From Hyphomonas sp. (GTDB lineage: Bacteria; Pseudomonadota; Alphaproteobacteria; Caulobacterales; Hyphomonadaceae): 64,000 nucleotides of DNA. The translations under genes and the position numbers were made by a program. Below, piece by piece: positions 7,083 through 23,856 of the stretch. Under the pieces are notes generated by a model, which was not told the DNA's origin, did no database searches, and saw only the letters and a program-made list of their open reading frames with translations. Every line of letters starts with the position of its first letter. Positions within the stretch are counted from its first letter, which is position 1. Location: contig NZ_JAGYJH010000003.1 in assembly GCF_018402285.1 (NCBI RefSeq), forward strand, positions 1,240,001 through 1,304,000. Direction: 5' to 3'.

Positions 7083-7947
7083 TATTATCAATCAGCCGCG
7101 TCTTGCCGATCCACGCCGCCGCCAGCAGGCGCGCTTGCGTGCCTTCTTTCAAAGGCTCACCCAGGGGCAGGGCCTGCAGCGTCGCCGGGTCCACGAGCGT
7201 GACATAATCCAGCTTCCGGAATCCGGCAGTCAGGATATGCCCTTCTGCTTCCTTAAGCGCCTCTGAGGGCAGGGTACCGAGTGACATCCGAACCGAGGCC
7301 CGGTGCATTGCTGCAAAGATCGCGCCGGCCGCGCGCCGTTCCTCCGGGGAAAGATAAAGATTGCGGGAAGACTGGGCGAGCCCGTCCGCATCCCGCTTCG
7401 TTTCTCCGCCGATGATCTCGATGGGAAAGCCGAGGTCCTGCACCATCCGGCGGATCACCTGCAGCTGCTGGTAATCTTTTTCCCCGAACACGGCCAGGTC
7501 CGGCTGCGCATGCAGGAAGAGGCGGGCCACCACGGTCGCCACCCCGTAGAAGAAGTGCGGCCGGTAAATCCCGTCGAGCAGGTCCGACAGCGATTCGACC
7601 CGCACATTGGTCACTGATCCTTCGGGATACATTTCTGCAACACTGGGAAGATAAACAGCGTCACATTTCGCGCTGGCCAGCTTGGCAATGTCTTCGGCCT
7701 CGCGGCGCGGATAGGTGTCGAAATCCTCGCCCGGGGCGAACTGCGCCGGGTTAACGAAAATACTCGCTACGGTGCGTGTTACCTTTTCCTGAGCTTTTTC
7801 AATGAGGGAGAGGTGCCCCTCATGCAGGGCCCCCATGGTGGGGACGAAACCCACGGTTTCACCGGTCTGTTTCCAGGCCCGCACACAGGCCTGCAGTTCG
7901 TTTCGGGTACGGATTATTTCGACCCGGTTTTCTGTCGTCGAATTCAC
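7066..7947 (-). CDS. panC: pantoate--beta-alanine ligase
   Basis: VGFVPTMGALHEGHLSLI, SIFVNPAQFAPGEDFDTYPR, FGEKDYQQLQVIRRMV. Confidence 0.95.
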   Translation of the reverse strand: MNSTTENRVEIIRTRNELQACVRAWKQTGETVGFVPTMGALHEGHLSLIEKAQEKVTRTVASIFVNPAQFAPGEDFDTYPRREAEDIAKLASAKCDAVYLPSVAEMYPEGSVTNVRVESLSDLLDGIYRPHFFYGVATVVARLFLHAQPDLAVFGEKDYQQLQVIRRMVQDLGFPIEIIGGETKRDADGLAQSSRNLYLSPEERRAAGAIFAAMHRASVRMSLGTLPSEALKEAEGHILTAGFRKLDYVTLVDPATLQALPLGEPLKEGTQARLLAAAWIGKTRLIDNISVTR

Positions 7948-8014
7948 TTTTCAGATGCCCTGCTTCAAGATGAAGTTAATGTGTTGTTAACCCAGACGGG
8001 GGAATTTTACAGAC

Positions 8015-8497
8015 ATGACCCAGCGCATCGTAACCACTCTCCGCTCGCTCGCACTTTTCGGTGCTGTCTCGCTTGGCCTGCGCAAGGCGAACATCGAAGA
8101 AAGGCATCCTGAACCCATCCTCGGCGCCCTTCGCCCGGATGAAGAGAATGATGCCTGGTTGTTCGACCGGTCCGAGACCAATCTTTCCTCCGGTGCCTAC
8201 ATGCTGGAGCAGGAATATTCCCGCGTGTCCGGCGCTCTTTCGGCGCTTCGCGGCGTCCTGTCCAGCCTTGCCCGCGTTCCAGAAGCCGGCGAGATGGCTT
8301 ATGCCGCGCCCTATGACGCGCCGCTGGCCACCGATCCGATGCTCTTCGACGAGGCGCGCGCGCTCATCCCGGTTCTCACCAACGTGGTTCCCTTCGAGGA
8401 CGACGATCTCTTTGTCGAACATACCTTCGCTCTGCCGCGGGCCGGTGCCGGCCACCATCACCCGCAGTCTGTCGAAGCCCTGCAGCGCGTCGCCTGA
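8015..8497 (+). CDS. hypothetical protein between panC and mipZ
   Basis: 160-aa ORF co-oriented with mipZ, with coding-like composition; no family recognised. Confidence 0.55.
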   Translation: MTQRIVTTLRSLALFGAVSLGLRKANIEERHPEPILGALRPDEENDAWLFDRSETNLSSGAYMLEQEYSRVSGALSALRGVLSSLARVPEAGEMAYAAPYDAPLATDPMLFDEARALIPVLTNVVPFEDDDLFVEHTFALPRAGAGHHHPQSVEALQRVA

Positions 8498-8556
8498 CCT
8501 ACGCCGGAATAGTTTGACCGAAGGCTTGTTGCCGGAGGAGTTGTGGAGTTCCCTGG

Positions 8557-9444
8557 ATGCCCGCTGACGGCGTCGCTCATCTCAGCCGCGTTCCGGGTGC
8601 GGGCCTGGAGGCCCCTGCGCGGGACGCGCGCGTTATTGTCATCGGCAATGAAAAGGGCGGGGCGGGCAAGTCCACCGTCTCCATCCACCTGTCCGTCGCC
8701 CTCCTGCGCACCGGCAGGAAGGTCGGTGTCATCGATCTCGATGTCCGCCAGCGCTCGCTGACCCGCTATCTCGAAAACCGAGTCCGGTGGGCCCAGAACA
8801 CCGGCGCCACGCTCGTCATGCCGGAAATCGTCCGCGTCGAGGCCAGCCAGGAGCGCGACCTTGACCGCGCCGAGGCCGAGGAAAGCCAGCGCTTCCAGGC
8901 CGGCCTCGCCCGACTGAAGCAGACCTGCGACTTCATCCTTATCGACGCCCCCGGCGGCGATACCTTCCTCTCGCGCGCCGCCCATCGCAGCGCCGACACC
9001 CTCATCACCCCCCTCAATGACAGCTTCGTCGACTTCGACCTGCTGGGCGACGTGAACCCCCAGACCCTCGAAGTCCTGCGCCCCAGCTTCTATTCCGAAA
9101 TGGTCTGGGACTGCCGCAAGAAGAAGGCTCAGACGAGCCGCCGCCCGATTGACTGGGTGGTGATGCGAAACCGCATGTCGCCTCTGGCCGCCCGCAACAA
9201 GGAACGCGTCGGCGGCGCGCTGGAAAATCTCTCCAAGCGTATCGGCTTCCGCCTGGCCCCCGGTCTTTCCGAGCGCGTCATCTACCGCGAGCTCTTCCCC
9301 GCCGGCCTTACCCTGCTGGACCTCACTGAAGCGGGCTCCAACGTCGCCTTCACGATGAGCCACAAGGCCGCCCGCCAGGAGCTGCGCGATCTGGTCATCG
9401 TCCTCCAGCTCCCCGAACTCGCCGGCGCCAGCATCGACTTCTGA
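8557..9444 (+). CDS. mipZ: MipZ-like division-plane positioning ParA-type ATPase
   Basis: VIGNEKGGAGKSTVSIHLSVALLRTGRKVGVIDLDVRQRSLTRYLENR..., DFILIDAPGGDTFL, NDSFVDFDLLG; resembles Caulobacter MipZ from memory. Confidence 0.88.
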   Translation: MPADGVAHLSRVPGAGLEAPARDARVIVIGNEKGGAGKSTVSIHLSVALLRTGRKVGVIDLDVRQRSLTRYLENRVRWAQNTGATLVMPEIVRVEASQERDLDRAEAEESQRFQAGLARLKQTCDFILIDAPGGDTFLSRAAHRSADTLITPLNDSFVDFDLLGDVNPQTLEVLRPSFYSEMVWDCRKKKAQTSRRPIDWVVMRNRMSPLAARNKERVGGALENLSKRIGFRLAPGLSERVIYRELFPAGLTLLDLTEAGSNVAFTMSHKAARQELRDLVIVLQLPELAGASIDF

Positions 9445-10706: not shown

Positions 10707-10740
10707 CCATGGGGCGCTCCCTTATAGGAGCCCCCCATGG
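10707..10740. promoter_or_regulatory. near-perfect inverted repeat covering the SD/start codon of tgt
   Basis: CCATGGGGCGCTCC-CTTATA-GGAGCCCCCCATGG: 14-bp arms with one mismatch; right arm includes the tgt ATG at 10737. Confidence 0.6.
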
Positions 10741-11882
10741 CTACCTTCCCATTCGAAATCTCCGCCCGCGAGGGCAAGGCGCGCACCGGGCGCCTGAAAA
10801 CCCCGCGCGGCGACATCCGCACGCCCGCCTTCATGCCCGTCGGCACTGCCGGCACGGTGAAGGCCCTCTATATGGATCAGGTCAAAGGGGCAGGGGCCGA
10901 CATAATTCTCGGCAACACCTACCACCTGATGCTCCGCCCCGGCGCCGAGCGGGTTCAGCGCCTCGGCGGCCTGCACAAATTCTCCGGCTGGCCTGGCCCG
11001 ATGCTGACCGACTCCGGCGGCTTTCAGGTCTGGTCGCTCGCCCAGCTGCGCAAGATGGACGCAGACGGCGTCACCTTCCAGAGCCATATCGATGGCAGCG
11101 CCCATCGCCTCACCCCCGCCCGCTCCATCGAGATCCAGGCAGACCTTCTGGGCGCGGACATCTCCATGCAGCTTGATGAGTGCACAAATTTTCCGTGTAC
11201 ACATGAAGAGGCAGCGCGGAGCCTTGAGCTCTCCCTCAAATGGGGCGAGCGCAGCCTCGACGCCTTCGGCGCCCGCGACCGCCAAACTCTCTTCGGCATC
11301 ATTCAGGGCTCAAACTTTCCAGATCTCCGCGAGCGCTCTGCCAGAGGCGTCACGGGCCAGGGCTTCGGCGGCATCGCGCTTGGCGGTCTCGCGGTCGGCG
11401 AAGGCCATGACCAGATGTGCGCCAGCATCGACATGACGACGCCGCATCTGCCCGACCACATGCCCCGTTATGTCATGGGCGTCGGCAAGCCCATCGACCT
11501 CGTCGAAAGCGTCGCGCGCGGCATCGACATGTTCGACTGCGTCCTGCCCACCCGTTCCGGCCGCCACGGCCAGGCCTGGACCTGGGATGGCCCGCTCAAC
11601 CTCAACAACGCAAAATTTGCCGAAGACACGAGCCCGCTGGAGGAAGGCGTAAACTGCCCGGCCAGCCAGGACTATTCCCGCGCTTACCTGCATCACCTTT
11701 TCAAGGCCGGCGAATATCTCGGCCCCATGCTGCTCTCCTGGCACAACACCGCCTTCTTTCAGGCCCTGATGGCAGAGATGCGCGCCGCCATCGCCGAAGG
11801 CCGTTTCGAGCAGCTGCGCGCGCAGCTCAGCGCCCGCTGGGAAAGCACGAAATCCAAACCGAAAACCAAGGCGCCCGGCTGA
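10737..11882 (+). CDS. tgt: queuine tRNA-ribosyltransferase
   Basis: GNTYHLMLRPGAE, DSGGFQVWSL, GIIQGSNFPDLRERS, RYVMGVGKPIDLVESVARGIDMFDCVLPTRSGRHGQAW. Confidence 0.95.
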   Translation: MATFPFEISAREGKARTGRLKTPRGDIRTPAFMPVGTAGTVKALYMDQVKGAGADIILGNTYHLMLRPGAERVQRLGGLHKFSGWPGPMLTDSGGFQVWSLAQLRKMDADGVTFQSHIDGSAHRLTPARSIEIQADLLGADISMQLDECTNFPCTHEEAARSLELSLKWGERSLDAFGARDRQTLFGIIQGSNFPDLRERSARGVTGQGFGGIALGGLAVGEGHDQMCASIDMTTPHLPDHMPRYVMGVGKPIDLVESVARGIDMFDCVLPTRSGRHGQAWTWDGPLNLNNAKFAEDTSPLEEGVNCPASQDYSRAYLHHLFKAGEYLGPMLLSWHNTAFFQALMAEMRAAIAEGRFEQLRAQLSARWESTKSKPKTKAPG

Positions 11883-11889
11883 CGCGCCC

Positions 11890-12510
11890 CTAGCGGTACT
11901 GGATCTTGCTCTCGGATTTCAGGGTCTCCAACGCCTCGAAGTCTGGCTGGGCGGGGATCTGGCACCCCAGCGCCTGGCCATAGCCTTTCAGATAGGCCCG
12001 TCTCTGCGCGCCGATCTTGAAGGCCTGATTGTATTTCTTCTCATGGCTCTCCGCGCCGGTCGCCTGGCGAACGAGGCCCCGGAAAGGGATCCATCCTGTG
12101 GAGACATTGCGCACTGCGTCGAGCGCCGCGTCGGAGGCTTCCTCCGCCAGCACTTCGGAATTCAGCCGCTCGTCCGGCTGGCCTGAATCCCAGTCGAGCC
12201 CCAGAACGGCGTCGAGCTCGGCAACGTCCATTTCGATGCCGGCGCAGGTCATCTCCCCGGGCGGGCCGTAGGGCACTTTCAGCGTCGCCAGAAGCTGTGG
12301 AATTTCCCGGCGGCGCAGGTTGAAATCATCCAGCGGGGCGGATGCCGCCCCGGCCAGCCCGTCGCGCGTCTGGCCGGCCGCGCTTCCGGCCGCAGCGCCC
12401 ATATTCTGGCCCGTCTGGCCCCCGCTGGCGCAGGCAGAAAGGGCAAGGGCGGCTAGGAGGGGCAAAGCAAGGTGTCGCATCGGCCGAGGAGATGTGAAAA
12501 ATATGGCCAC
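11890..12510 (-). CDS. hypothetical lipoprotein
   Basis: Signal peptide with lipobox LALSACAS; no other family recognised. Confidence 0.65.
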   Translation of the reverse strand: MAIFFTSPRPMRHLALPLLAALALSACASGGQTGQNMGAAAGSAAGQTRDGLAGAASAPLDDFNLRRREIPQLLATLKVPYGPPGEMTCAGIEMDVAELDAVLGLDWDSGQPDERLNSEVLAEEASDAALDAVRNVSTGWIPFRGLVRQATGAESHEKKYNQAFKIGAQRRAYLKGYGQALGCQIPAQPDFEALETLKSESKIQYR

Positions 12511-12595: not shown

Positions 12596-12671
12596 GTGCC
12601 CATAGCTCAGCTGGTAGAGCAACTGACTTTTAATCAGTAGGTCACAGGTTCGAACCCTGTTGGGCACACCA
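12596..12671 (+). tRNA. tRNA-Lys (anticodon TTT), CCA encoded
   Basis: Cloverleaf-compatible: GTGCCCA...TGGGCAC-A-CCA acceptor, CTTTTAA anticodon loop, GGTTCGAACC T-arm. Confidence 0.97.
12627..12671 (+). repeat. 45-bp direct repeat, left copy (within tRNA-Lys)
   Basis: CTTTTAATCAGTAGGTCACAGGTTCGAACCCTGTTGGGCACACCA. Confidence 0.97.
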
Positions 12672-12910
12672 TTTTCTTAAATAAATTCAATAGGTTGATT
12701 GGATGGATCCAGACGCGCTCCGGAACAAAATGAGCCGGGACACGTTGGGGGACACTCTTCCCCGCTGTTACCGCATTTAGAATTTTTCGTGTCTCGTTTT
12801 CACCCTGCGCCGGGAGCATCGAGGCTGCGAGGCAATATTTGAATTGGCGCGGGCGGTCTGCCGACCTCGCAGTGCGGACGGCAGAACTCACTCGTCCTGT
12901 CTGTCGTTCC

Positions 12911-13518
12911 ATGTCCGCTCAACATCAACACCATGTTCCAAAACTCTTTCTGCGCGGGTTCCTTATCCAGCACGACCACTAGGAGGCTATTGAACGCCTT
13001 CGGGTGTTCGACCTGCTTGCCCGCCGCGTGTTCTCCACTTCCAATGCCAACACCATGGGCAAGCGCCGCTACAACGATTTTTGGATCGACGAAGAGACAC
13101 TGGCCACTATCGAGCCTGCTGCCGGTAGAATTAGAGCCATGTTGCGTCGCTTGTGGAATGGTTGCGCACTGAGAAAAAGCTGGCTCGAACCGTCGAGGAA
13201 ATGGGCGACTGGACGCTGCTCTTTGCCTTGCAGTTCATTCGGACAAAACGCATTCGTTTGCTTCCAGCAGAACTGAGACGTCAGCTGAGCGAACGCTTTG
13301 TTCGAACGGGGTTTGATCCGAACAAAGTCGAAGGGTTACCTCCACTCGATGAAGAGGCCCTCAAGAAGCTGCACACCAAACGCCAGCTCGAAAGCCTGTT
13401 CAAATACTTGGAGATGTTTGCGAATAGAGAAATCGTTTTGATGGCTGCGCTGAATTGCCCCGGATCCAGGTGCCATGCCCGGCTGAGGAAACGCTCGCCC
13501 TTCCTCTCGAAGATCTGA
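12911..13518 (+). pseudogene. degraded DUF4238-like gene (in-frame TAG and one frameshift)
   Basis: MSAQHQHHVPKLFLRGFLIQHDH*(TAG 12980-12982)EAIERLRVFDLLARRVFS..., frame shift near 13130, then HVASLVEWLRTEKKLARTVEEMGDWTLLFALQFIRTKRIRLLP; HHVPxxxLRGF and FALQFIRTxRxR resemble DUF4238. Confidence 0.65.
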
Positions 13519-13579
13519 AAAAAAAGAATGTTCAATCGCCACGCCTTTTCTAGCCGTCGGCGGCGCGCACGTACCACTC

Positions 13580-15835
13580 CTATTGTTGGTCGAGGATTAT
13601 CTCATTGAAACGGTTCATTCCCGATCCACCCCTGGAACCCGCATCATAAATGTACCCGTAAGCTCTTCGCCCGTCTGGACGATTGAGTATGTTGCCGCGG
13701 ACCCAGGAACCCTCGATACCTTCCACCATGACGGTTGGCGGCTGCCATCCGCCGGCATCATGGGTCGCGAATATCTGCCGGGAGTGTTCATCAATAAATA
13801 GCAGATGTAAGACGCTGCCGTCCAAAACGACATCGGCGGCTGGCTGCTGGGCATCGACCGCATTCGTGATCACCGGCAGGCCGCTGATTTTCACTGCAGG
13901 TGTTGCAGGTGACATCCCGCGCACTCTTCGTTCCCACAAATGACCGTCTTCCAGCCTGTAGATGATGATCGTCGTGTCTGTTGTGGGGTCATAGACCAGA
14001 GGCAGAACGGCTCCGTACTCGGCCCGGCTGGTCCCTGCGCCTGTGGCAAGACGTTGCCGCGCCCCGAGCGAGCCATCGGCTTCCACGCGCCGATACCAGA
14101 CAGTCCCATCTGTCCTAAGGTAAGCCAGATGAACTACGCCGTCTGTACCGAGCACAGCCTGGGGACCAGCGTTGCCGTATTCATCGGCCGGATCCAACTC
14201 TGTCGCAGGTTCCCATTGGCCGTCCGGCGAACGGCTGGCCATATACAAACGGTCGGCGAGGAAAACCGTGACCAGGCTGCCATCCGGCCGAACCACGAGA
14301 GTGGCCATCTGGGCAATAGCCGTCGCTGTTGCGGCGACTTCGTCGCGGACTGACCATCGGTCAGGCTCATTAGGATGGTCAGAAGTATTAAAGACATGAT
14401 AGCGCACAGAATGCGTGACTTGATGGATGATGTGGATACTGTCCCCGACTTGCCGGCTGTCCACTGACTCCAGATCTCCTGTTTCAGGGCGATTGGCACC
14501 ATCGACCTCACGCCATGTCTTTCCGCCATCTGCAGATTTCATCATCATGAAACGGTTGTCGGTTTCACTTGGCTCCATGATGAAATAGAGGTCACCATTG
14601 CCTGCCTGCCACGGCCCGATACGGCCGGGTGTCTCTACAAAAGTCCCGCCAAGATGGCCGTCGGGAACAGTCAGAACGATCTGCGCAACTGCCGCGCCAG
14701 CCACCGGCAAACCCCCGGCCTCGATCATACGGAACTCGAACTTATCACCCGCCTCATTCATCAGCGCGCCGTCTGCAAGGCGCCGGATCACCAACGGCCA
14801 TTCAAATTCTCCGTGTCCTGACTTGCCTCCCCAAAGCGGGGTATCTTCAGATAAGGACAAACCGAAGCCCGGCACAAAAGCGGACTTTGATCCCGAAAGC
14901 AGATCCGTGGTAGCGTCAGCATCGGCGTAGGCGGTTGTGCCTGCGATGCTGACGAGAGGGCTCCTTGGCTCTCCTTCCAAAACAAGTTCGCGGAGGTCTG
15001 CGGTATGCAGAGCATCTGCGGAAATCCCAACATCGCCGGACCATAGCGCCGTCCCTGTGGGCACGATGAATTCCAGCGTATCATCATCGAAGCTGACTTG
15101 CAGTGAACCGCCCTCAAGCTGAATTTCCAGTTCAAGCCAGATACCCGGTTCGATAAAAACCTTGCGTTCGGCCATGACGCGTTCTTGGCCTTGCTGGACT
15201 TGGCTCACCTTGATCAGCTCAGGTTCAACCTGCACGCGGGCATAGTTTTCAGAATCGGCATAGGCGAACAGCATGGCGAACCCTGGCGATCCTTGGGGCG
15301 CTAGGCGAAATTCGACTGCATAACTGAATGTCGTCAAAGGCCAGGGGCTTGGATAAAGTGCGGCAAACCCGTCCTTGCTGCCATTGATCCGCAAGATCGC
15401 ATCGGATCCTGCGGCAACGACCGTCAGGGCCTCAGATGCCCCCTTCAGCAAGGTCCAACCGTCCAGGGCGCCAGGATCCTGATCTTCGAAGGTCATGTGG
15501 ACTTTTCGTTCTGGCTTTGGAAACCCATGCGCTTCAAGCGTTTCCCAGACCTCCCCATTGCGCCGGGCCTGAAGCCGGAATGTCTGAGGGTTGGTTTCAG
15601 CCGCCTCTGCTTCAAACCGTAACCGGAAAGGTTGATCTGCAGGCTGAAGAACTGCTTCACTCTGTTCGCCGGCCCAGCCCGTATCTCCATTCAAAGGTGC
15701 CTGAAGATCAGATCTCACGCGAAAGGCCGGATCGCTGGCAGCCACTTGCTGCGTTCCAAGGGCCAGACCCGTTGCCATCAGTAAACGCTGCAGCCAAGTG
15801 GACAAGGGGCGGACAGGAAACCTTTTGGAGCTCAT
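13580..15835 (-). CDS. secreted protein with concanavalin/laminin-G-like N-terminal part and BNR/Asp-box sialidase-like C-terminal part
   Basis: Signal peptide MSSKRFPVRPLSTWLQRLLMATGLALGTQQVAA; Asp-box SADGGKTWREV; repeated beta-propeller-like segments. Confidence 0.65.
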   Translation of the reverse strand: MSSKRFPVRPLSTWLQRLLMATGLALGTQQVAASDPAFRVRSDLQAPLNGDTGWAGEQSEAVLQPADQPFRLRFEAEAAETNPQTFRLQARRNGEVWETLEAHGFPKPERKVHMTFEDQDPGALDGWTLLKGASEALTVVAAGSDAILRINGSKDGFAALYPSPWPLTTFSYAVEFRLAPQGSPGFAMLFAYADSENYARVQVEPELIKVSQVQQGQERVMAERKVFIEPGIWLELEIQLEGGSLQVSFDDDTLEFIVPTGTALWSGDVGISADALHTADLRELVLEGEPRSPLVSIAGTTAYADADATTDLLSGSKSAFVPGFGLSLSEDTPLWGGKSGHGEFEWPLVIRRLADGALMNEAGDKFEFRMIEAGGLPVAGAAVAQIVLTVPDGHLGGTFVETPGRIGPWQAGNGDLYFIMEPSETDNRFMMMKSADGGKTWREVDGANRPETGDLESVDSRQVGDSIHIIHQVTHSVRYHVFNTSDHPNEPDRWSVRDEVAATATAIAQMATLVVRPDGSLVTVFLADRLYMASRSPDGQWEPATELDPADEYGNAGPQAVLGTDGVVHLAYLRTDGTVWYRRVEADGSLGARQRLATGAGTSRAEYGAVLPLVYDPTTDTTIIIYRLEDGHLWERRVRGMSPATPAVKISGLPVITNAVDAQQPAADVVLDGSVLHLLFIDEHSRQIFATHDAGGWQPPTVMVEGIEGSWVRGNILNRPDGRRAYGYIYDAGSRGGSGMNRFNEIILDQQ

Positions 15836-16252
15836 TATTTGTGTCCTAAATTCGCATCAGCCCATGGGGATTGTGCGCAAGATAGCGGAGAGTGCCGTGC
15901 GTCTTTCGCGCCGTCCGTAGTTTGCACAGCAACGTGACATTGATGATACGATAGAAAACGAAAATGAGAAGCAACCACGCGGATTGCCAATGGAGAAACC
16001 TGTCATGATTCTTACAGTTCTCCTGGCGCGCCGAGAGGTCTCTCTATCTAACGTATAGGCTTCTTTCAGCGCAGGTTCGCGCGGCAGTGACAGAAACCAT
16101 AATTCAGCTGACATTTTCAGGATGAACCAGGCCGGTCTCCCGACCCGATATTCACGCAAACGTTTTGTCACATAAGTATTTCGTAAAATTCAAACTTATC
16201 TCGCGACTCCCCGATTAAGAGAATGCTTGCTTAACCAATAGGGGTGTTTGGT

Positions 16253-19234
16253 ATGACTACGAACAAATTTCGCGCGGTGTTGCTAGGCAGCATTGCTCCA
16301 TTTCTCGCGATCTCCGGAGTGGGTTCGACTGCTCAAGCTCAGACCGGTGCCGCCGATACGCTCCAGGCGACCGGCGAAGTAACCGGCGTCGTGTCGGATG
16401 CGGTCCGGGGCGTCTACCTCGTTGGCGCCGAAGTGCGCATCACAGGCCTCAACATCGTTGCAGTTACCGACTCTGAAGGACGTTATTCCTTTCGTCAGGT
16501 GCCGCTTGGTCAACAGACGGTGGAAGTCAGCTATCTAGGGCGGCCGACCCGCCAGGCACGCGTCACGGTGACGGGCGGTGAACCTGCGCTTGTCGACGTT
16601 GTCCTCGGGGCGACCGGTGAAGATGACCGGGTGATGGAGAGCATCATCGTGCTCGGCGCACGTCCGCAGGCAGAGTCGGAGGCCGCAGCGCTTCAGGTTC
16701 AACGTTCGTCCAAAGCCATCGTCAACGTCGTGGCCGCTGACTCGATTGGCAACTTTCCCGATCAGAACATCGCGGCTGCCATTGGAAGACTGCCCGGCGT
16801 AGCTGTCGGACGCGACCAGGGACAGGAGCGCACGCTCAGCCTCAGGGGCGCGCCGTCCCGCTGGACATCAATCGCCTTTGATGGCGTGAATGTCATTGCA
16901 CCGGGCGGCAAGTCTGCGCGGACCGATACGGTTCCTGCTGCGATCGCCAGTTCCGTCATCGTGCGCAAGGCTGTGACACCGGCAATGCCGGGCGAGTCTC
17001 TGGCGGGAAATATCGACATCATCACCCGGGGCGCCTTTGACTATCCCGGTCCCAAGGCAGCTCTCAATACCGCCGTCGGATATAATGAGCTCGGCGGCGG
17101 TGAGCAGTATGATATCGGGGGCTTTGTCTCCAATACGTTTGCAGATGGCCGCATCGGTCTGCTCCTTTCGGCATCGCGCTATGAGCGCGAGATGATCACC
17201 GACAATTTCGAAACCGACTGGGAAACGGGTGAAGATTCTGAAGACCGTGAAGCCGGCTTTGCGGATCGCGCCTGGGCAGACGCGCACCAGAACAAGCTTT
17301 ATCGTCTGACGCGCAGCAATACGGCCTATTCCGGCCGGCTCGATTTCCGCCCCTCTGATGCGCATCGTTTCTTCTTCAGTTCCATCTATACCGAGTTTAC
17401 CGATGATGAACTGCGCAACGCGATGGAGTTTGATCTCGATGATGGGGCGCGGGACACCGACGAGGCTGCGATCACGCGCGGTTATGCCGACATCCGGACG
17501 GGCAATACACCCTTCCAGGGACGCATCTTCGCAGTCGAGCTCGACAGCACGCTTAACTCGAACAGAACCCTGCAGAGCATTTTCACCAATACGTTGGGTG
17601 GTGAGCAGAGGTTCGGAGATTGGGACGCTTCCTGGAGGCTGAACTATAGCAATTCGCTGTCTGAAAGCGGGCCGACGATCCAGTCAGCCTGGAGGAGCCC
17701 GCGCGGATCAAACGCCCTCGCCGGACGCCCGACCGTGATTTACGACTTTACCGATCCGGAAAATCACCGCGTCGAGCTGTTCGAGACGATCGTTAACCCT
17801 GATGGCTCTCTCTCTCAGGGCGAGTCGAAGCGCAACCTCGACGCTCAGGACTATGAGTTTGTTCGTCTGCGAAACAACGACCGGCTGCAGGACAGCTATT
17901 CCTACAGCGCCCGCCTCGATCTCGGCCGTGAGCTGACCCTGTTTGACCGGGCAACCGAATTCCAGTTCGGCGTTCAGTATGACGATCGCTCGAAGAAAGA
18001 CACCCGCCAGACCCTGGAAATCACTGCAGCCCAGCTGGCTGCTGCCGGCATTGCAGCCCCATCGAGGGCCGACATTGAGATAAATGATCCGTATAAAGGC
18101 GAATTGCCACTCGGTTATTCTTTCCGGTATTTCTCCGACAGCGCCATACGGCAGCTGTGGAACGGTCTGGCCGATCAGGGAGTGTCCCGGGTCCAGGCTA
18201 ATACATCCGAGACAAACAACTTCAGGGTCACTGAGAATGTAATCGCCGGTTATGCGATGACGACGACGTATTTCGACTGGGGTAACATTCTCGCGGGTGC
18301 CCGCGTGGAACGGGTTGAAAATACCGGGCGGGCCCTCGTCAGGTTCGGCAATAATTTCGAACTTGCCAATGTGGGGGATGATAGCCTTCAGGTCTTCCCG
18401 AGTATGCATGTCAACTGGGACATCAATGACCAGCTCAAACTGCGTCTTTCGGCAAACAGCGGCGCGGCACGCCCGGATTTCTCCATCCTGCGGCCGAACT
18501 TCAACGTCTCCGACGAGAACCAGACGATCAGCGGGGGCAACCCCTTCGCGCTTCCGGAAAAGGCGATCGGCGCAGATGGCTATCTCGAATGGTACCTGCC
18601 GTCGGGCGCCTTCCTTTCATTCGGCGCCTATTACAAGTCTCTGGACGACGTGCTGTTTTCGGTTCGCAATCCGGCTTTTGGCAGTGATGTCCTCAACGAG
18701 CCGGGAATTGATCGCTCCGGCTATGTGTTCACGACGACCGACAATGGCGGCAGTGGCTACTTGGCCGGCGCTGAGGTTGCCTTTTCCCAGACCCTTGAGC
18801 CTTTTGCTGACCGGTTGAACCTGCCCGAGTGGGCAGGTGGTTTCGGCGTACGCGGAAACTTGACGCTGAACGATTCGGAAGTGGAAACACCAGATGGCCG
18901 CAAGGTTCAGCTGCCCGGTTCGTCAGATCTGATCTACAATGCTGCTCTTTCGTACGAGCGCTACGGCCTCTCGACCCGGATCAGCTGGCAGTACCAGACA
19001 GAGTATATCGACAGCATCGGGAGTGGCGACGTCCTGGGTGATGGCTTCTGGAGCGATGTCGGGCGCCTGGATTTCAAGACGGAATATACCTTCAACGACA
19101 ATGCCCAGGTTTATTTCGAGGCAAACAACCTCACTCGTGAGCCGGGCGTGCGTTATGAGGGTATCGTTGCCCGCACCTCCGAATACGAAGAATTCGGGGC
19201 GCGCTATCTGCTCGGTCTCCGCCTGAACTTCTGA
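16253..19234 (+). CDS. TonB-dependent receptor with N-terminal carboxypeptidase-regulatory-like domain
   Basis: Signal peptide; VTGVVSDAVRGVYLVGAEVRITGLNIVAVTDSEGRYSFRQVPLGQQTVEVSYLG; plug domain; C-terminal F (LLGLRLNF) typical of outer-membrane beta-barrels. Confidence 0.93.
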   Translation: MTTNKFRAVLLGSIAPFLAISGVGSTAQAQTGAADTLQATGEVTGVVSDAVRGVYLVGAEVRITGLNIVAVTDSEGRYSFRQVPLGQQTVEVSYLGRPTRQARVTVTGGEPALVDVVLGATGEDDRVMESIIVLGARPQAESEAAALQVQRSSKAIVNVVAADSIGNFPDQNIAAAIGRLPGVAVGRDQGQERTLSLRGAPSRWTSIAFDGVNVIAPGGKSARTDTVPAAIASSVIVRKAVTPAMPGESLAGNIDIITRGAFDYPGPKAALNTAVGYNELGGGEQYDIGGFVSNTFADGRIGLLLSASRYEREMITDNFETDWETGEDSEDREAGFADRAWADAHQNKLYRLTRSNTAYSGRLDFRPSDAHRFFFSSIYTEFTDDELRNAMEFDLDDGARDTDEAAITRGYADIRTGNTPFQGRIFAVELDSTLNSNRTLQSIFTNTLGGEQRFGDWDASWRLNYSNSLSESGPTIQSAWRSPRGSNALAGRPTVIYDFTDPENHRVELFETIVNPDGSLSQGESKRNLDAQDYEFVRLRNNDRLQDSYSYSARLDLGRELTLFDRATEFQFGVQYDDRSKKDTRQTLEITAAQLAAAGIAAPSRADIEINDPYKGELPLGYSFRYFSDSAIRQLWNGLADQGVSRVQANTSETNNFRVTENVIAGYAMTTTYFDWGNILAGARVERVENTGRALVRFGNNFELANVGDDSLQVFPSMHVNWDINDQLKLRLSANSGAARPDFSILRPNFNVSDENQTISGGNPFALPEKAIGADGYLEWYLPSGAFLSFGAYYKSLDDVLFSVRNPAFGSDVLNEPGIDRSGYVFTTTDNGGSGYLAGAEVAFSQTLEPFADRLNLPEWAGGFGVRGNLTLNDSEVETPDGRKVQLPGSSDLIYNAALSYERYGLSTRISWQYQTEYIDSIGSGDVLGDGFWSDVGRLDFKTEYTFNDNAQVYFEANNLTREPGVRYEGIVARTSEYEEFGARYLLGLRLNF

Positions 19235-19238
19235 TATC

Positions 19239-19274
19239 GTAAGCTCCCTCGCGCGCTAGCGAGAGGGAGCTTAC
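19239..19274 (+). terminator. strong hairpin after the TonB-dependent receptor gene
   Basis: GTAAGCTCCCTC-gcgcgctagcga-GAGGGAGCTTAC, 12-bp perfect arms 5 bp after the stop; no clear T-tract. Confidence 0.65.
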
Positions 19275-19403
19275 ACCCGTTTGGGAGGGCGGTCTTCTGA
19301 GCGGGGGGGCAGAGTGGTCTGGCAAGGCCCCGTTAAGCATCAAGGCGGCCGGTTTGCAGACTTGCCGTTCATATACGTTCGTTACCATGAAGGAAGAAGT
19401 ACG

Positions 19404-20864
19404 ATGATCCGGGTCCGAGCCTTTATTCTTTCGGCTAGCCTTTCAATAATCTGCGCTACCGGTGCAAACGCGCATCAAGGCCACGCAGCGCCGCCATGGC
19501 AACAATCATCGGTTTGGCCCGACCGGATCGTCGTTACGCTCCCGGATGATCCGGCGACATCCTTTGCGGTAACCTGGAGAACGTCAGCGGACGTTGAAAA
19601 CTCTGTCGCGGAAATCGCTGTGGCAACACCTGATGCCCGCTTCGATCTGGCTGCGGAAAGCCGCACGGCAGTATCTGAAGAACTCGATCTGGCAACTGTG
19701 AAACGACTTGGTGCAGATGTTCCAGTTGAATGGAACAGCATGCTTGCGCCCGTTCGCTTCCATTCGGTTACCTTTGATGGCCTTGAGCCGGACACGCTGT
19801 ATGCTTACCGCGTTCGGGGCGCAGACTCGGCATGGAGTGAATGGTATCAGGTGCGGACTGCGCCTGTTGATGGTCCGATCTCTTTCATCTATGTGGGGGA
19901 CGCGCAGAACGGTATCCTATCGCATTGGGCGCGGACGATCCGGGCCGCATTTCAGACGGCGCCTGACGCCAGGTTCATTCTTCATGCAGGCGACCTCGTG
20001 AACCGCGCTTCGCGTGATTTTGAGTGGGCCGAGTGGTTTAAGTCTGTCGGGTTTATCCACGGTATGATCCCGGCGATGCCCGTTGCGGGCAATCACGAGT
20101 ATGATCGCATTGGTCTGCCGGAAGATACGACAAGCCGTATTCTCTCCATCCTGTGGCGCCCGCAGTTTACCCTGCCGGTCGAAGAAACACTCCACGCCGA
20201 TCTCCGCGAGACCGTCTATGACGTGCGCTACACAAAGGATCTGCATCTCTTCGTCCTCGACACGCAAGCAGGCCGGATCGACGAACAGGCCGAATGGCTG
20301 GACAAGGCCCTGTCAGAGAGCGACGCCCGCTGGCGGATCGTCTCGATGCACCACCCGATATTCTCCTCAGGCCGCGGAAGGGATAATGCTGACCGCCGGC
20401 AGATCCTTTTGCCGGTTTTCCTCAAGCACAATGTCGATCTCGTTCTGCAGGGACATGATCACACCTATGCGCGGGGCCTCATACCTCAGGATGATACGAC
20501 CCAGACACCAGAACGTATTGCAATGGGTGATACGGATCTTATCAAGACGATGTTCGTCAACTCTGTGTCGGGTGCCAAGCAGTATACGTTCAAGGATGAC
20601 CGCTGGGACGGCTATACCTCCGACGGTGTGGAACTTAAGAACTATGCAGAAAACACTCAATTTTTCCAAGTCGTTCGCATCTATGGCAATACGCTGAGCT
20701 ATACCGCTTATACAGCGACGAGGGAAATCTATGACAGCTTCGTCATGACTAAAGGAGAAGATGCAGTAAAAACCCTGCTGGAAGGCAGCGGATCTACGAT
20801 CGATCTTCGCCTTTTCGAGAGCACGATGCCCTACCCAGGGGTAAGTGATCTGAGTGCGGAGTAG
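19404..20864 (+). CDS. secreted metallophosphoesterase, purple-acid-phosphatase-like
   Basis: Signal peptide MIRVRAFILSASLSIICATGANA; fibronectin-like PAP N-terminal region; motifs GDAQN, AGDLV, GNHEY, MHHPIF, GHDHTYAR; SD at ~19390; the ORF-track start at 19281 is too early. Confidence 0.85.
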   Translation: MIRVRAFILSASLSIICATGANAHQGHAAPPWQQSSVWPDRIVVTLPDDPATSFAVTWRTSADVENSVAEIAVATPDARFDLAAESRTAVSEELDLATVKRLGADVPVEWNSMLAPVRFHSVTFDGLEPDTLYAYRVRGADSAWSEWYQVRTAPVDGPISFIYVGDAQNGILSHWARTIRAAFQTAPDARFILHAGDLVNRASRDFEWAEWFKSVGFIHGMIPAMPVAGNHEYDRIGLPEDTTSRILSILWRPQFTLPVEETLHADLRETVYDVRYTKDLHLFVLDTQAGRIDEQAEWLDKALSESDARWRIVSMHHPIFSSGRGRDNADRRQILLPVFLKHNVDLVLQGHDHTYARGLIPQDDTTQTPERIAMGDTDLIKTMFVNSVSGAKQYTFKDDRWDGYTSDGVELKNYAENTQFFQVVRIYGNTLSYTAYTATREIYDSFVMTKGEDAVKTLLEGSGSTIDLRLFESTMPYPGVSDLSAE

Positions 20865-20881
20865 TAAGTCCGAGCGATTGG

Positions 20882-20925
20882 CGCTGTAAACTGCGTATTC
20901 AGGATTAGCCTTCCAGTTTACAGCG
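20882..20925. repeat. 12-bp perfect inverted repeat near right end of the island
   Basis: CGCTGTAAACTG (20882-20893) ... CAGTTTACAGCG (20914-20925). Confidence 0.6.
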
Positions 20926-21054
20926 TCGTCGGAACGTGGCTTAGAGCAGACTGAAGGGTGCTGACCTGCCACTGAACTTTGATCTTGACGGGATTAGAGC
21001 CGCTGCGGTCTGTACGCCTTCCAGTGCGGGCTTAGCAACGAAGGATTGGCGGAG

Positions 21055-21099
21055 CTTTTAATCAGTAGGTCACAGGTTCGAACCCTGTTGGGCACACCA
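21055..21099 (+). repeat. 45-bp direct repeat, right copy (tRNA-Lys 3' remnant)
   Basis: CTTTTAATCAGTAGGTCACAGGTTCGAACCCTGTTGGGCACACCA, identical to 12627-12671, with no 5' tRNA half upstream. Confidence 0.97.
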
Positions 21100-21243: not shown

Positions 21244-22464
21244 TCACGTCGCTTGAAGTTCAAACGTAAGACCGGCATGAGCCTGCAGCCGGTCGATCAG
21301 TTTATCGCCCATGAGCCCTGCCGGGGTCCAAAACCCGCCCACGGTGTTTTCCGGCACGTCCCTGGCCAGGCAGGCAGCGGCCTGTGCCAGCATTTTAGCC
21401 GTGGAGCCATACCCTGGGTCGCGATCCCCGGTTACCCGGCATCTGATTTTGTCGCCGCGGCGTGTTGTTCCCAGGAACACCAGATCATATTCGCCATCGA
21501 GCTGTTGTTGTTCGCTCGGCCCTTCTCCCGGCTTGGGGAGGAAATAATTTTCCAGTAGCCAGCGCGTGGGCGGGAAAGCGAAGGCGAGCATCCCGCCTGC
21601 CAGTCCCAAGCTGATCGCTCTGGCCGTGCGCTTGCCGCGGCCACCGGCTCCCGACAACATGGCCTCTTCATACATAAAGTCGGTGCCATAGCTGTTGTTG
21701 CTCAACGCGTTGGAACGATGGACGACGCGCGCGTTGATGGCCGCCATGATGAAGGGAGCAATCCAGCTGTTGCAGTCTTCGTCATAAGCCATCTGCACAT
21801 CGTGCTGGCGGGCAGCAAAGGCATGGCCCGGCGGGCAAAGGCTGTAGGGATCCTTCAATTGCCTGCGCAGCTGAGCATCCCCCGACGCCTCCTTGACCAT
21901 ATTGATCATGCTCGCAATCGTTCCGCCGGAAGCTGCGCCCTTGATCTTCGCTACCCGCATGTTGATCCGGTTGCAGGTCTGACCAAGCTTTTCCGTTGCC
22001 TGCTGCTGAAGAAAATGGACACCCAGATCCGAAGGAATGGAGTCAAACCCGCAACAGTGCACGATCCATGCGCCGCTCTGCCTGGCGGCCTGCTCATGGC
22101 GCTCCTGCATCTTTCGGATCCATTGCGGCTCCCCTGTGAGATCGCAGTAATGGGTTCCCGACGTAGCGCAGACCTTTACCAGCGTGTCACCATAAAGCGC
22201 ATAAGGCCCAACCGTAGACACGATGACTTTGGTCCTTGCGCTCATTGCCTTGAGAGCCGCTTCATCACTGGCATCGGCGACGATCAATTCGATGCCTGAC
22301 AAGCCGATGTCCTGGCTGAGTTTTTCCAGCTTGCTTCGCGAGCGCCCGGCAATAGCCCATTTGATCGCTCCTTTCCCGAACTGCTCATTCATGTAGCGAA
22401 CCATGATCTGACCCACGAAACTGGTCGCGCCGTAAAGAATGATGTCGAAGGTCTTGTCTGTCAT
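21244..22464 (-). CDS. saccharopine dehydrogenase-like / trans-acting enoyl reductase family protein
   Basis: FDIILYGATSFVGQIMVRYMNEQFG Rossmann motif, AIAGRSRSKLEKL, TVGPYALYGDTLVKVC, DLTGEPQWIRKM. Confidence 0.85.
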   Translation of the reverse strand: MTDKTFDIILYGATSFVGQIMVRYMNEQFGKGAIKWAIAGRSRSKLEKLSQDIGLSGIELIVADASDEAALKAMSARTKVIVSTVGPYALYGDTLVKVCATSGTHYCDLTGEPQWIRKMQERHEQAARQSGAWIVHCCGFDSIPSDLGVHFLQQQATEKLGQTCNRINMRVAKIKGAASGGTIASMINMVKEASGDAQLRRQLKDPYSLCPPGHAFAARQHDVQMAYDEDCNSWIAPFIMAAINARVVHRSNALSNNSYGTDFMYEEAMLSGAGGRGKRTARAISLGLAGGMLAFAFPPTRWLLENYFLPKPGEGPSEQQQLDGEYDLVFLGTTRRGDKIRCRVTGDRDPGYGSTAKMLAQAAACLARDVPENTVGGFWTPAGLMGDKLIDRLQAHAGLTFELQAT

Positions 22465-22612: not shown

Positions 22613-23788
22613 CTAAAGCCCCAAAACCCCCTTCGCGATAATGTTCCGCTGAACTTCGTTCGAGCCGCCATAGATCGAACCGGCCCGGTTGTTGAGATAG
22701 CGCGGCATTGCCGTCACCAGCTCCGCCGGGCCGATCGGCGCCACATTCGCCAGCGGATGCACCGCTTCCAGCTGTTGGACGCCTGCGTAAATCCCGCTCG
22801 CCAGAACGGCGAGCTCATCTACCGCCTGCATCAGCTCGGTGCGCTGTATCTTCAGCATCGAGGCTGCCGGCCCCGGCGGTTTGCCGCTGGAAACAGCCGA
22901 AAGAATGCGCTGCTCGGTGCCTTTGATGGCCTCCACGCGCGTCCCCAGATCGCCGGCAAGACGCATGAGATCGGGGCACCCGATCCCTGTCACATAACGC
23001 TGCAAACGGGCAAGGCCTGCCTCCAGCCCGGCAGACGATCCGCCCGACCGCTCGAATTCCAGAAGGTATTTTGCCACCGACCAGCCATCATTCTCCTCGC
23101 CGAGGCGGCCGGACTTTGGCACGCGGACCTCGTCGAAAAACACCTGGTTGAGTTCATGCTCGCCCGCCAGCGTGATGATCGGGTCCACCTTGATCCCGGG
23201 GATCGACATGTCGAGCAGGAGGAAAGTTATCCCCTTTTGCGCCTTTGCCTCCGGGTCCGTCCGCACAAGGCAGAACATCTTGTTGGCGTGGTGGGCATGG
23301 GTGGTCCAGATCTTGGTACCGTTTAGCACATAATCGTCCCCGTCACTCACCGCCCGCAGCTGCAGCGAGGCCAGATCAGAGCCCGATCCCGGCTCCGAAT
23401 AGCCCTGGCACCAATAGTCCTCGCCCGAGAGGATCCGCGGCAGGTAATGCGCCTTTTGCTCCGGCGTGCCATAGCCGATGATGCACGGGCCCACCATGCC
23501 CAGCCCCATCGGCGCCAGCCCCGGCGCGCCTGCGCGGGCGCACTCGCTGGCAAAGATATAGCGCTGCATTTCGCTCCAGCCGGTGCCACCATACTTCTTC
23601 GGCCAGTGGGGCGCGACCCAGCCGCGTTCATGCAGAATGCGCTGCCAGGGCAGGGTGAATTCCGGCTCGATGAAGACGCTGGTGGCCAGCCGTCCGGCAG
23701 CGGCGAGTTCGGGGCTCAGCTTTTCCCCAAGGAAGGCTCGCACTTCCTGCTGAAATTCAACATCCTGCGATGACAGATCTAGTTTCAT
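22613..23788 (-). CDS. acyl-CoA dehydrogenase
   Basis: MKLDLSSQDVEFQQEVRAFL, CQGYSEPGSGSDLASLQLRA, YGGSNEVQRNIIAKGVLGL. Confidence 0.92.
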   Translation of the reverse strand: MKLDLSSQDVEFQQEVRAFLGEKLSPELAAAGRLATSVFIEPEFTLPWQRILHERGWVAPHWPKKYGGTGWSEMQRYIFASECARAGAPGLAPMGLGMVGPCIIGYGTPEQKAHYLPRILSGEDYWCQGYSEPGSGSDLASLQLRAVSDGDDYVLNGTKIWTTHAHHANKMFCLVRTDPEAKAQKGITFLLLDMSIPGIKVDPIITLAGEHELNQVFFDEVRVPKSGRLGEENDGWSVAKYLLEFERSGGSSAGLEAGLARLQRYVTGIGCPDLMRLAGDLGTRVEAIKGTEQRILSAVSSGKPPGPAASMLKIQRTELMQAVDELAVLASGIYAGVQQLEAVHPLANVAPIGPAELVTAMPRYLNNRAGSIYGGSNEVQRNIIAKGVLGL

Positions 23789-23856
23789 GGTCCGTGCCTC
23801 CCGGCTCATCCTCTTGCTTTCCTCATGACAGAGCAAGCAGAACAGCATGAGGCAAG

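Follow-up and report, generated by a model that had tools for sequence, protein, structure and literature searches.

Genomic islands that target tRNA genes are defined in Islander (PMC4383910) by a regenerated tRNA gene together with a displaced fragment of that gene, with an integrase as a further requirement, and an attachment (att) site centred on the anticodon (class A) is recorded for 2083 of the 3919 islands catalogued. In Sinorhizobium meliloti, a tRNA-Lys gene is an integration hot spot that hosts islands with 46-49 bp repeats of its 3' end (PMC11476347). The island described here lies in a 64,000-nucleotide stretch of a Hyphomonas sp. genome, referred to as the window. Like the Islander class, it shows a regenerated tRNA gene, a same-orientation displaced 3' fragment and an anticodon-loop crossover; unlike that class, it is a relic without an integrase and fails the integrase filter, and so it would be missed by Islander. 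It also resembles the S. meliloti islands in sitting in a tRNA-Lys gene with a 3'-end repeat of a similar kind, although the latter use the CUU isoacceptor, occur in a different order and are integrase-bearing elements. The satellite-like elements of two genomes from the same family, G046 and G068, share the att core, an arm motif at a near-identical offset and the flanking tgt gene with the window island, whereas the window island does not possess their mobility genes and carries a TonB receptor, a phosphatase and a sialidase-like protein instead. Integrase-less islands are usually labelled merely as decayed. The window island is ordinary in kind, and what is new is a typed and placed account of integrase loss, in which one scar would type the lost integrase (the arm motif) and another would place its loss (an IS3-family remnant that abuts the core of attR).

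The tRNA-Lys(TTT) gene, its displaced 3' half and the island-free sites

An intact tRNA-Lys(TTT) gene was identified by ARAGORN and Rfam on the forward strand at 12596-12671. Its last 45 bp (12627-12671), which span from the C opening the anticodon loop, at CTTTT, to the encoded CCA, are repeated on the same strand at 21055-21099 with 45/45 identity. The 45-mer is present at just two sites in the whole 3.04-Mb assembly when up to three mismatches are allowed, which rules out chance, and the 31 bases that lie 5' of the second copy show no match to the tRNA, leaving this copy without a 5' half. The perfect repeat and the missing 5' half were both described in the original prediction, and both descriptions are accurate. 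The upstream copy is the attL core, where the 3' half of the intact gene appears to have been supplied by the island, and the downstream copy is the attR core, the displaced original 3' half. An intact tRNA gene followed downstream by a displaced 3' fragment on the same strand is the arrangement that characterizes tRNA-targeted genomic islands.

To the left of the tRNA gene lie tgt, encoding tRNA-guanine transglycosylase (10737-11882, forward strand; NCBIfam TIGR00430), which adjoins tRNA-Lys in nearly all congeners examined, and a lipoprotein-like gene (11890-12510, reverse strand), which has a homologue of 45-79% identity at the same place in congeners. To the right, outside the repeat, lie a saccharopine-dehydrogenase-like gene (21244-22464, reverse strand; PF03435; G+C 0.582) and the conserved acyl-CoA dehydrogenase gene (22613-23848, reverse strand). 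Six congeners (G007, G010, G011, G017, G022 and G024) possess an island-free allele, as expected for a tRNA-targeted island, in which the order is lipoprotein gene, tRNA-Lys and acyl-CoA dehydrogenase gene. In G011 the acyl-CoA dehydrogenase gene follows directly after tRNA-Lys with a gap of ~120 bp, and in the other five tgt, the lipoprotein gene and tRNA-Lys are followed by 0.7-3.7 kb of variable DNA before the acyl-CoA dehydrogenase gene. The comparison for an empty site proposed with the original prediction is therefore answered by six genomes. When the outer flanks of attL and attR were compared with the island-free congeners, the similarity did not exceed that of shuffled sequence, since each genome has a different stretch 3' of tRNA-Lys; the DNA adjoining the tRNA gene varies among all close congeners, and the exact empty-site junction could not be aligned.

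Neither the cargo nor the saccharopine-dehydrogenase-like gene is present at the locus in any of the six island-free congeners, which makes the latter gene a separate local gain and not ancestral at the locus. It has relatives of 81-85% identity in other genomes of the family, and nothing above chance was found in a search for a third, decayed att between it and the acyl-CoA dehydrogenase gene. The proposal that core-like genes lie immediately outside the island thus applies to tgt and the lipoprotein gene, which are conserved in congeners, but not to the saccharopine-dehydrogenase-like gene.

Cargo and composition of the island

Three intact cargo genes lie between the repeats: a secreted sialidase/BNR-like protein of 751 aa (13580-15835, reverse strand), assigned on weak PF13088 and PF06439 scores from Pfam only; a TonB-dependent receptor of the TIGR01782 type (16244-19234, forward strand); and a secreted metallophosphoesterase of the purple-acid-phosphatase type (19281-20864, forward strand; PF00149 and PF16656). 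These genes had been predicted as the cargo, to which a DUF4238 pseudogene and the IS3-family remnant must be added. The pseudogene (12917-13449, forward strand) has an in-frame stop, a frameshift and a missing C-terminal part, and two stretches in different frames match a PF14022 protein from G066 (joint E 5e-13). An intact DUF4238 relative in G049 weakly matches the PADLOC model DUF4238-Pers, and the pseudogene may therefore be what is left of a gene linked to defence. Downstream of the phosphatase gene, at 20880-20930, GCGCTGTAAACTG ... CAGTTTACAGCG form an inverted repeat that is perhaps the terminator of that gene.

The distribution of the cargo was surveyed in an order sample of 398 genomes, 37 of which are congeners. 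Relatives of the sialidase-like gene are present in 5 of the 398 genomes, with the source genome counted, and the protein has relatives of 57% identity in two named genomes, Altererythrobacter and Erythrobacter; the phosphatase was found in 32 of the 398 and has relatives of 58-65% identity in other genera. Neither gene is present in any congener in the sample besides the source genome. The phosphatase is neighboured by a TonB receptor in several other genera as well, and so the pair looks like a functional unit. Together, the TonB receptor, the secreted phosphatase and the rare sialidase-like protein suggest the gain of a nutrient-scavenging trait. The cargo DNA has no match in the phage collection, and in the plasmid collection the cargo shows weak TonB-type matches to two plasmids and the sialidase-like protein shows none.

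The composition of the island is also foreign, as is characteristic of tRNA-targeted islands: its G+C is 0.566, against 0.648 in the left flank and 0.635 in the right, and in its right half the tetranucleotide composition deviates by up to z = 3.7. Both of the compositional measures proposed with the original prediction therefore set the island apart.

The layout seen in the window recurs in G270 (L143, 5591-12369), where the sialidase-like gene lies with a divergent TonB receptor, immediately next to a tRNA-Arg(CCT)-like 5' half and an integrase. This integrase was dropped as evidence on the island, since the split tRNA-Arg and restriction-like genes next to it point to it being part of a neighbouring island.

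Integrases at tRNA-Lys(TTT) and the arm motif

An orphan copy of the same tRNA-Lys half, which always starts at the anticodon-loop CTTTT, is present in nine other genomes of the family (G014, G021, G027, G034, G038, G046, G057, G059 and G068). A PF00589 tyrosine integrase adjoins one att copy in eight of the nine, which makes tRNA-Lys(TTT) a recurring target of integration in the family. The exception is G038, in which the orphan half (C2; L129, 2231-2275) is integrase-less and differs from the window 45-mer by two mismatches. The occupant in G034 is a large prophage, as judged by gene content, and those in G014 and G021 are 4.1-kb elements. The G068 occupant (L127, 2018-12210) spans 10.2 kb and encodes an integrase, an AlpA-like HTH protein, a primase-like protein and a small terminase subunit, and the G046 occupant (L135 and L136) is satellite-like with integrase and primase-like genes. 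The integrases share 78% identity between G014 and G021 and 93% between G046 and G068, those of G057 and G059 share ~54% with that of G027, and identity between types is ~23-31%; at least four distinct integrase types use tRNA-Lys(TTT), and their carriers comprise a prophage, satellite-like elements and small islands. The outer flank of attR in G021 resembles the flank that follows tRNA-Lys in G012, where a single att copy was found. The exact 45-mer is present in none of the viral contigs.

A tandem GGGACAC motif, GGGACACGTTGGGGGACAC, is present on the forward strand at 12737-12755, 65 bp inside the att core of the window island, and G068 and G046 carry GGGACACGCTCGGGGACAC 66 bp inside attL. 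In the 1.43 Mb examined, the tandem was found elsewhere only in four viral contigs, which had themselves been retrieved by the motif, and its expected number of chance occurrences over all the sequence examined is ~0.03. The four viral contigs have no linked tRNA-Lys site and were not used. The motif was not found in the attachment flanks of other integrase types. It is read here as a pair of predicted arm-type binding sites (P' arm) of a G046/G068-type integrase, and it consists of two repeats only. The window island shares it with the G046 and G068 elements at nearly the same offset, and the integrases of those two elements are 93% identical to each other; the lost integrase therefore probably belonged to this type. 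No leftover integrase sequence was found in the window. The island thus shares the att core and the arm-type motif with the phage satellites (PICI-like) of G068/G046 type, but the AlpA-like regulator, primase-like and terminase genes present in G068 are absent from the ORFs and Pfam matches of 12672-21054.

The region 3' of tRNA-Lys is variable in all close relatives, even those without repeats, and so the 45-bp copy might instead be a chance fragment of a tRNA gene or a duplication unrelated to integration, with the genes between the copies representing ordinary strain variation. This is highly improbable, since the core and its starting point are shared with the nine orphan copies, eight of them from genomes in which an integrase adjoins an att copy, the island is shifted in composition, and the arm motif is shared with G046 and G068. 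Integration of an island into tRNA-Lys, as originally predicted, is instead borne out by the island-free congeners, the lower G+C, the absence of the cargo from congeners, and the att half-copies that bound integrase-bearing elements in relatives.

The IS3 remnant, probable loss of the integrase and mobility

The right end of the island is occupied by 98 bp (20962-21059) left over from one end of an IS3-family insertion sequence, the outer terminus of which lies at the left while its truncated interior side meets the att core at CTTTT. The remnant exhibits 89% identity with IS loci in G018 and G010 and 74% identity with annotated IS3 ends on Mesorhizobium plasmids. The five bases CTTTT are common to the IS (GGCGGAGCTTTTCC) and the att core (CTTTTAATCAG) at the junction, which coincides with the first core bases used by all the orphan copies seen in the family. 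In the G046 and G068 elements the place of the remnant is taken by the P arm and, within ~0.3 kb, the integrase. The simplest history compatible with these sequences is a single deletion that extended from the IS interior up to the core and probably took the P arm and the integrase with it. The remnant could also have been located beside attP already before integration.

The account of the locus that is held with good confidence is that an element of G046/G068 type entered tRNA-Lys(TTT) and that a subsequent deletion from the IS3 copy to attR removed its integrase and fixed the island. The tyrosine integrase of such an element would have acted by a crossover in the anticodon loop, so that the tRNA gene would have been rebuilt with the element's own 3' half (attL) and the old 3' half pushed 8.4 kb downstream (attR). 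The TonB receptor, phosphatase, sialidase-like and DUF4238 genes may have been brought along or gathered later. An IS3-family copy situated between the cargo and the integrase would then have provided one end of the deletion, which would have run from the IS interior to the CTTTT at the beginning of the core of attR. With the P arm on the attR side lost, together with the integrase and the remaining mobility genes, the island would have been left fixed in place. No intact copy of the element, with the same arm motif and the same cargo together, was found.

As a special case of this history, the integrase may have deleted itself by recombining attR with a CTTTT pseudo-site in the resident IS3, thereby removing the P arm along with its own gene. 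The junction falls precisely where the core begins in the orphan copies throughout the family, with five bases shared, and this is consistent with such an event, but a microhomology-mediated deletion would yield an identical junction and the sequence beside the pseudo-site bears no clear likeness to a core-binding site. Self-deletion is a tentative suggestion of low probability, and if true it would represent a route whereby cargo islands become fixed.

The deletion history implies an immobile island. From what is established on tyrosine integrases, excision of the island by a lambda-type mechanism is unlikely with the P arm gone. No PF00589 match, and hence no integrase of the kind that marks a putatively active tRNA-targeted island, lies inside the island; all six PF00589 matches in the genome, the assembly of which is 90.9% complete and may miss a further integrase, lie outside it, in agreement with the prediction that no integrase is visible between the repeats. 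The two 45-bp cores are nevertheless intact and identical and the arm motif of attL is retained, and the island could on this basis still be mobile, excised in trans by an integrase encoded elsewhere. This is improbable, given that IS3 sequence stands in place of the attR-side P arm, that the only two full-length integrases unlike XerC/XerD adjoin tRNA-Leu(CAA) and a tRNA-Arg-like 3' fragment, and that the genome possesses no other tRNA-Lys att copy. Between the two fates offered by the original prediction, a decayed relic or an element mobilised in trans, the replacement of the P arm by the IS3 remnant favours the relic, and the location of the two non-Xer integrases speaks against mobilisation.

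These two integrases mark other loci on contig C3. A 373-aa tyrosine integrase adjoins an orphan tRNA-Arg-like 3' half, CTCCGAAGGC...GGGTGCACCA, near the contig end, and the region (C3:6093-9509; L066, ~7533-8960) is probably another tRNA island. A further tRNA island is present at C3:523,000-535,000 (L062), where an integrase starts ~80 bp past tRNA-Leu(CAA), a second integrase fragment lies 10 kb on, and tandem repeats of ~126 bp are located between the two.
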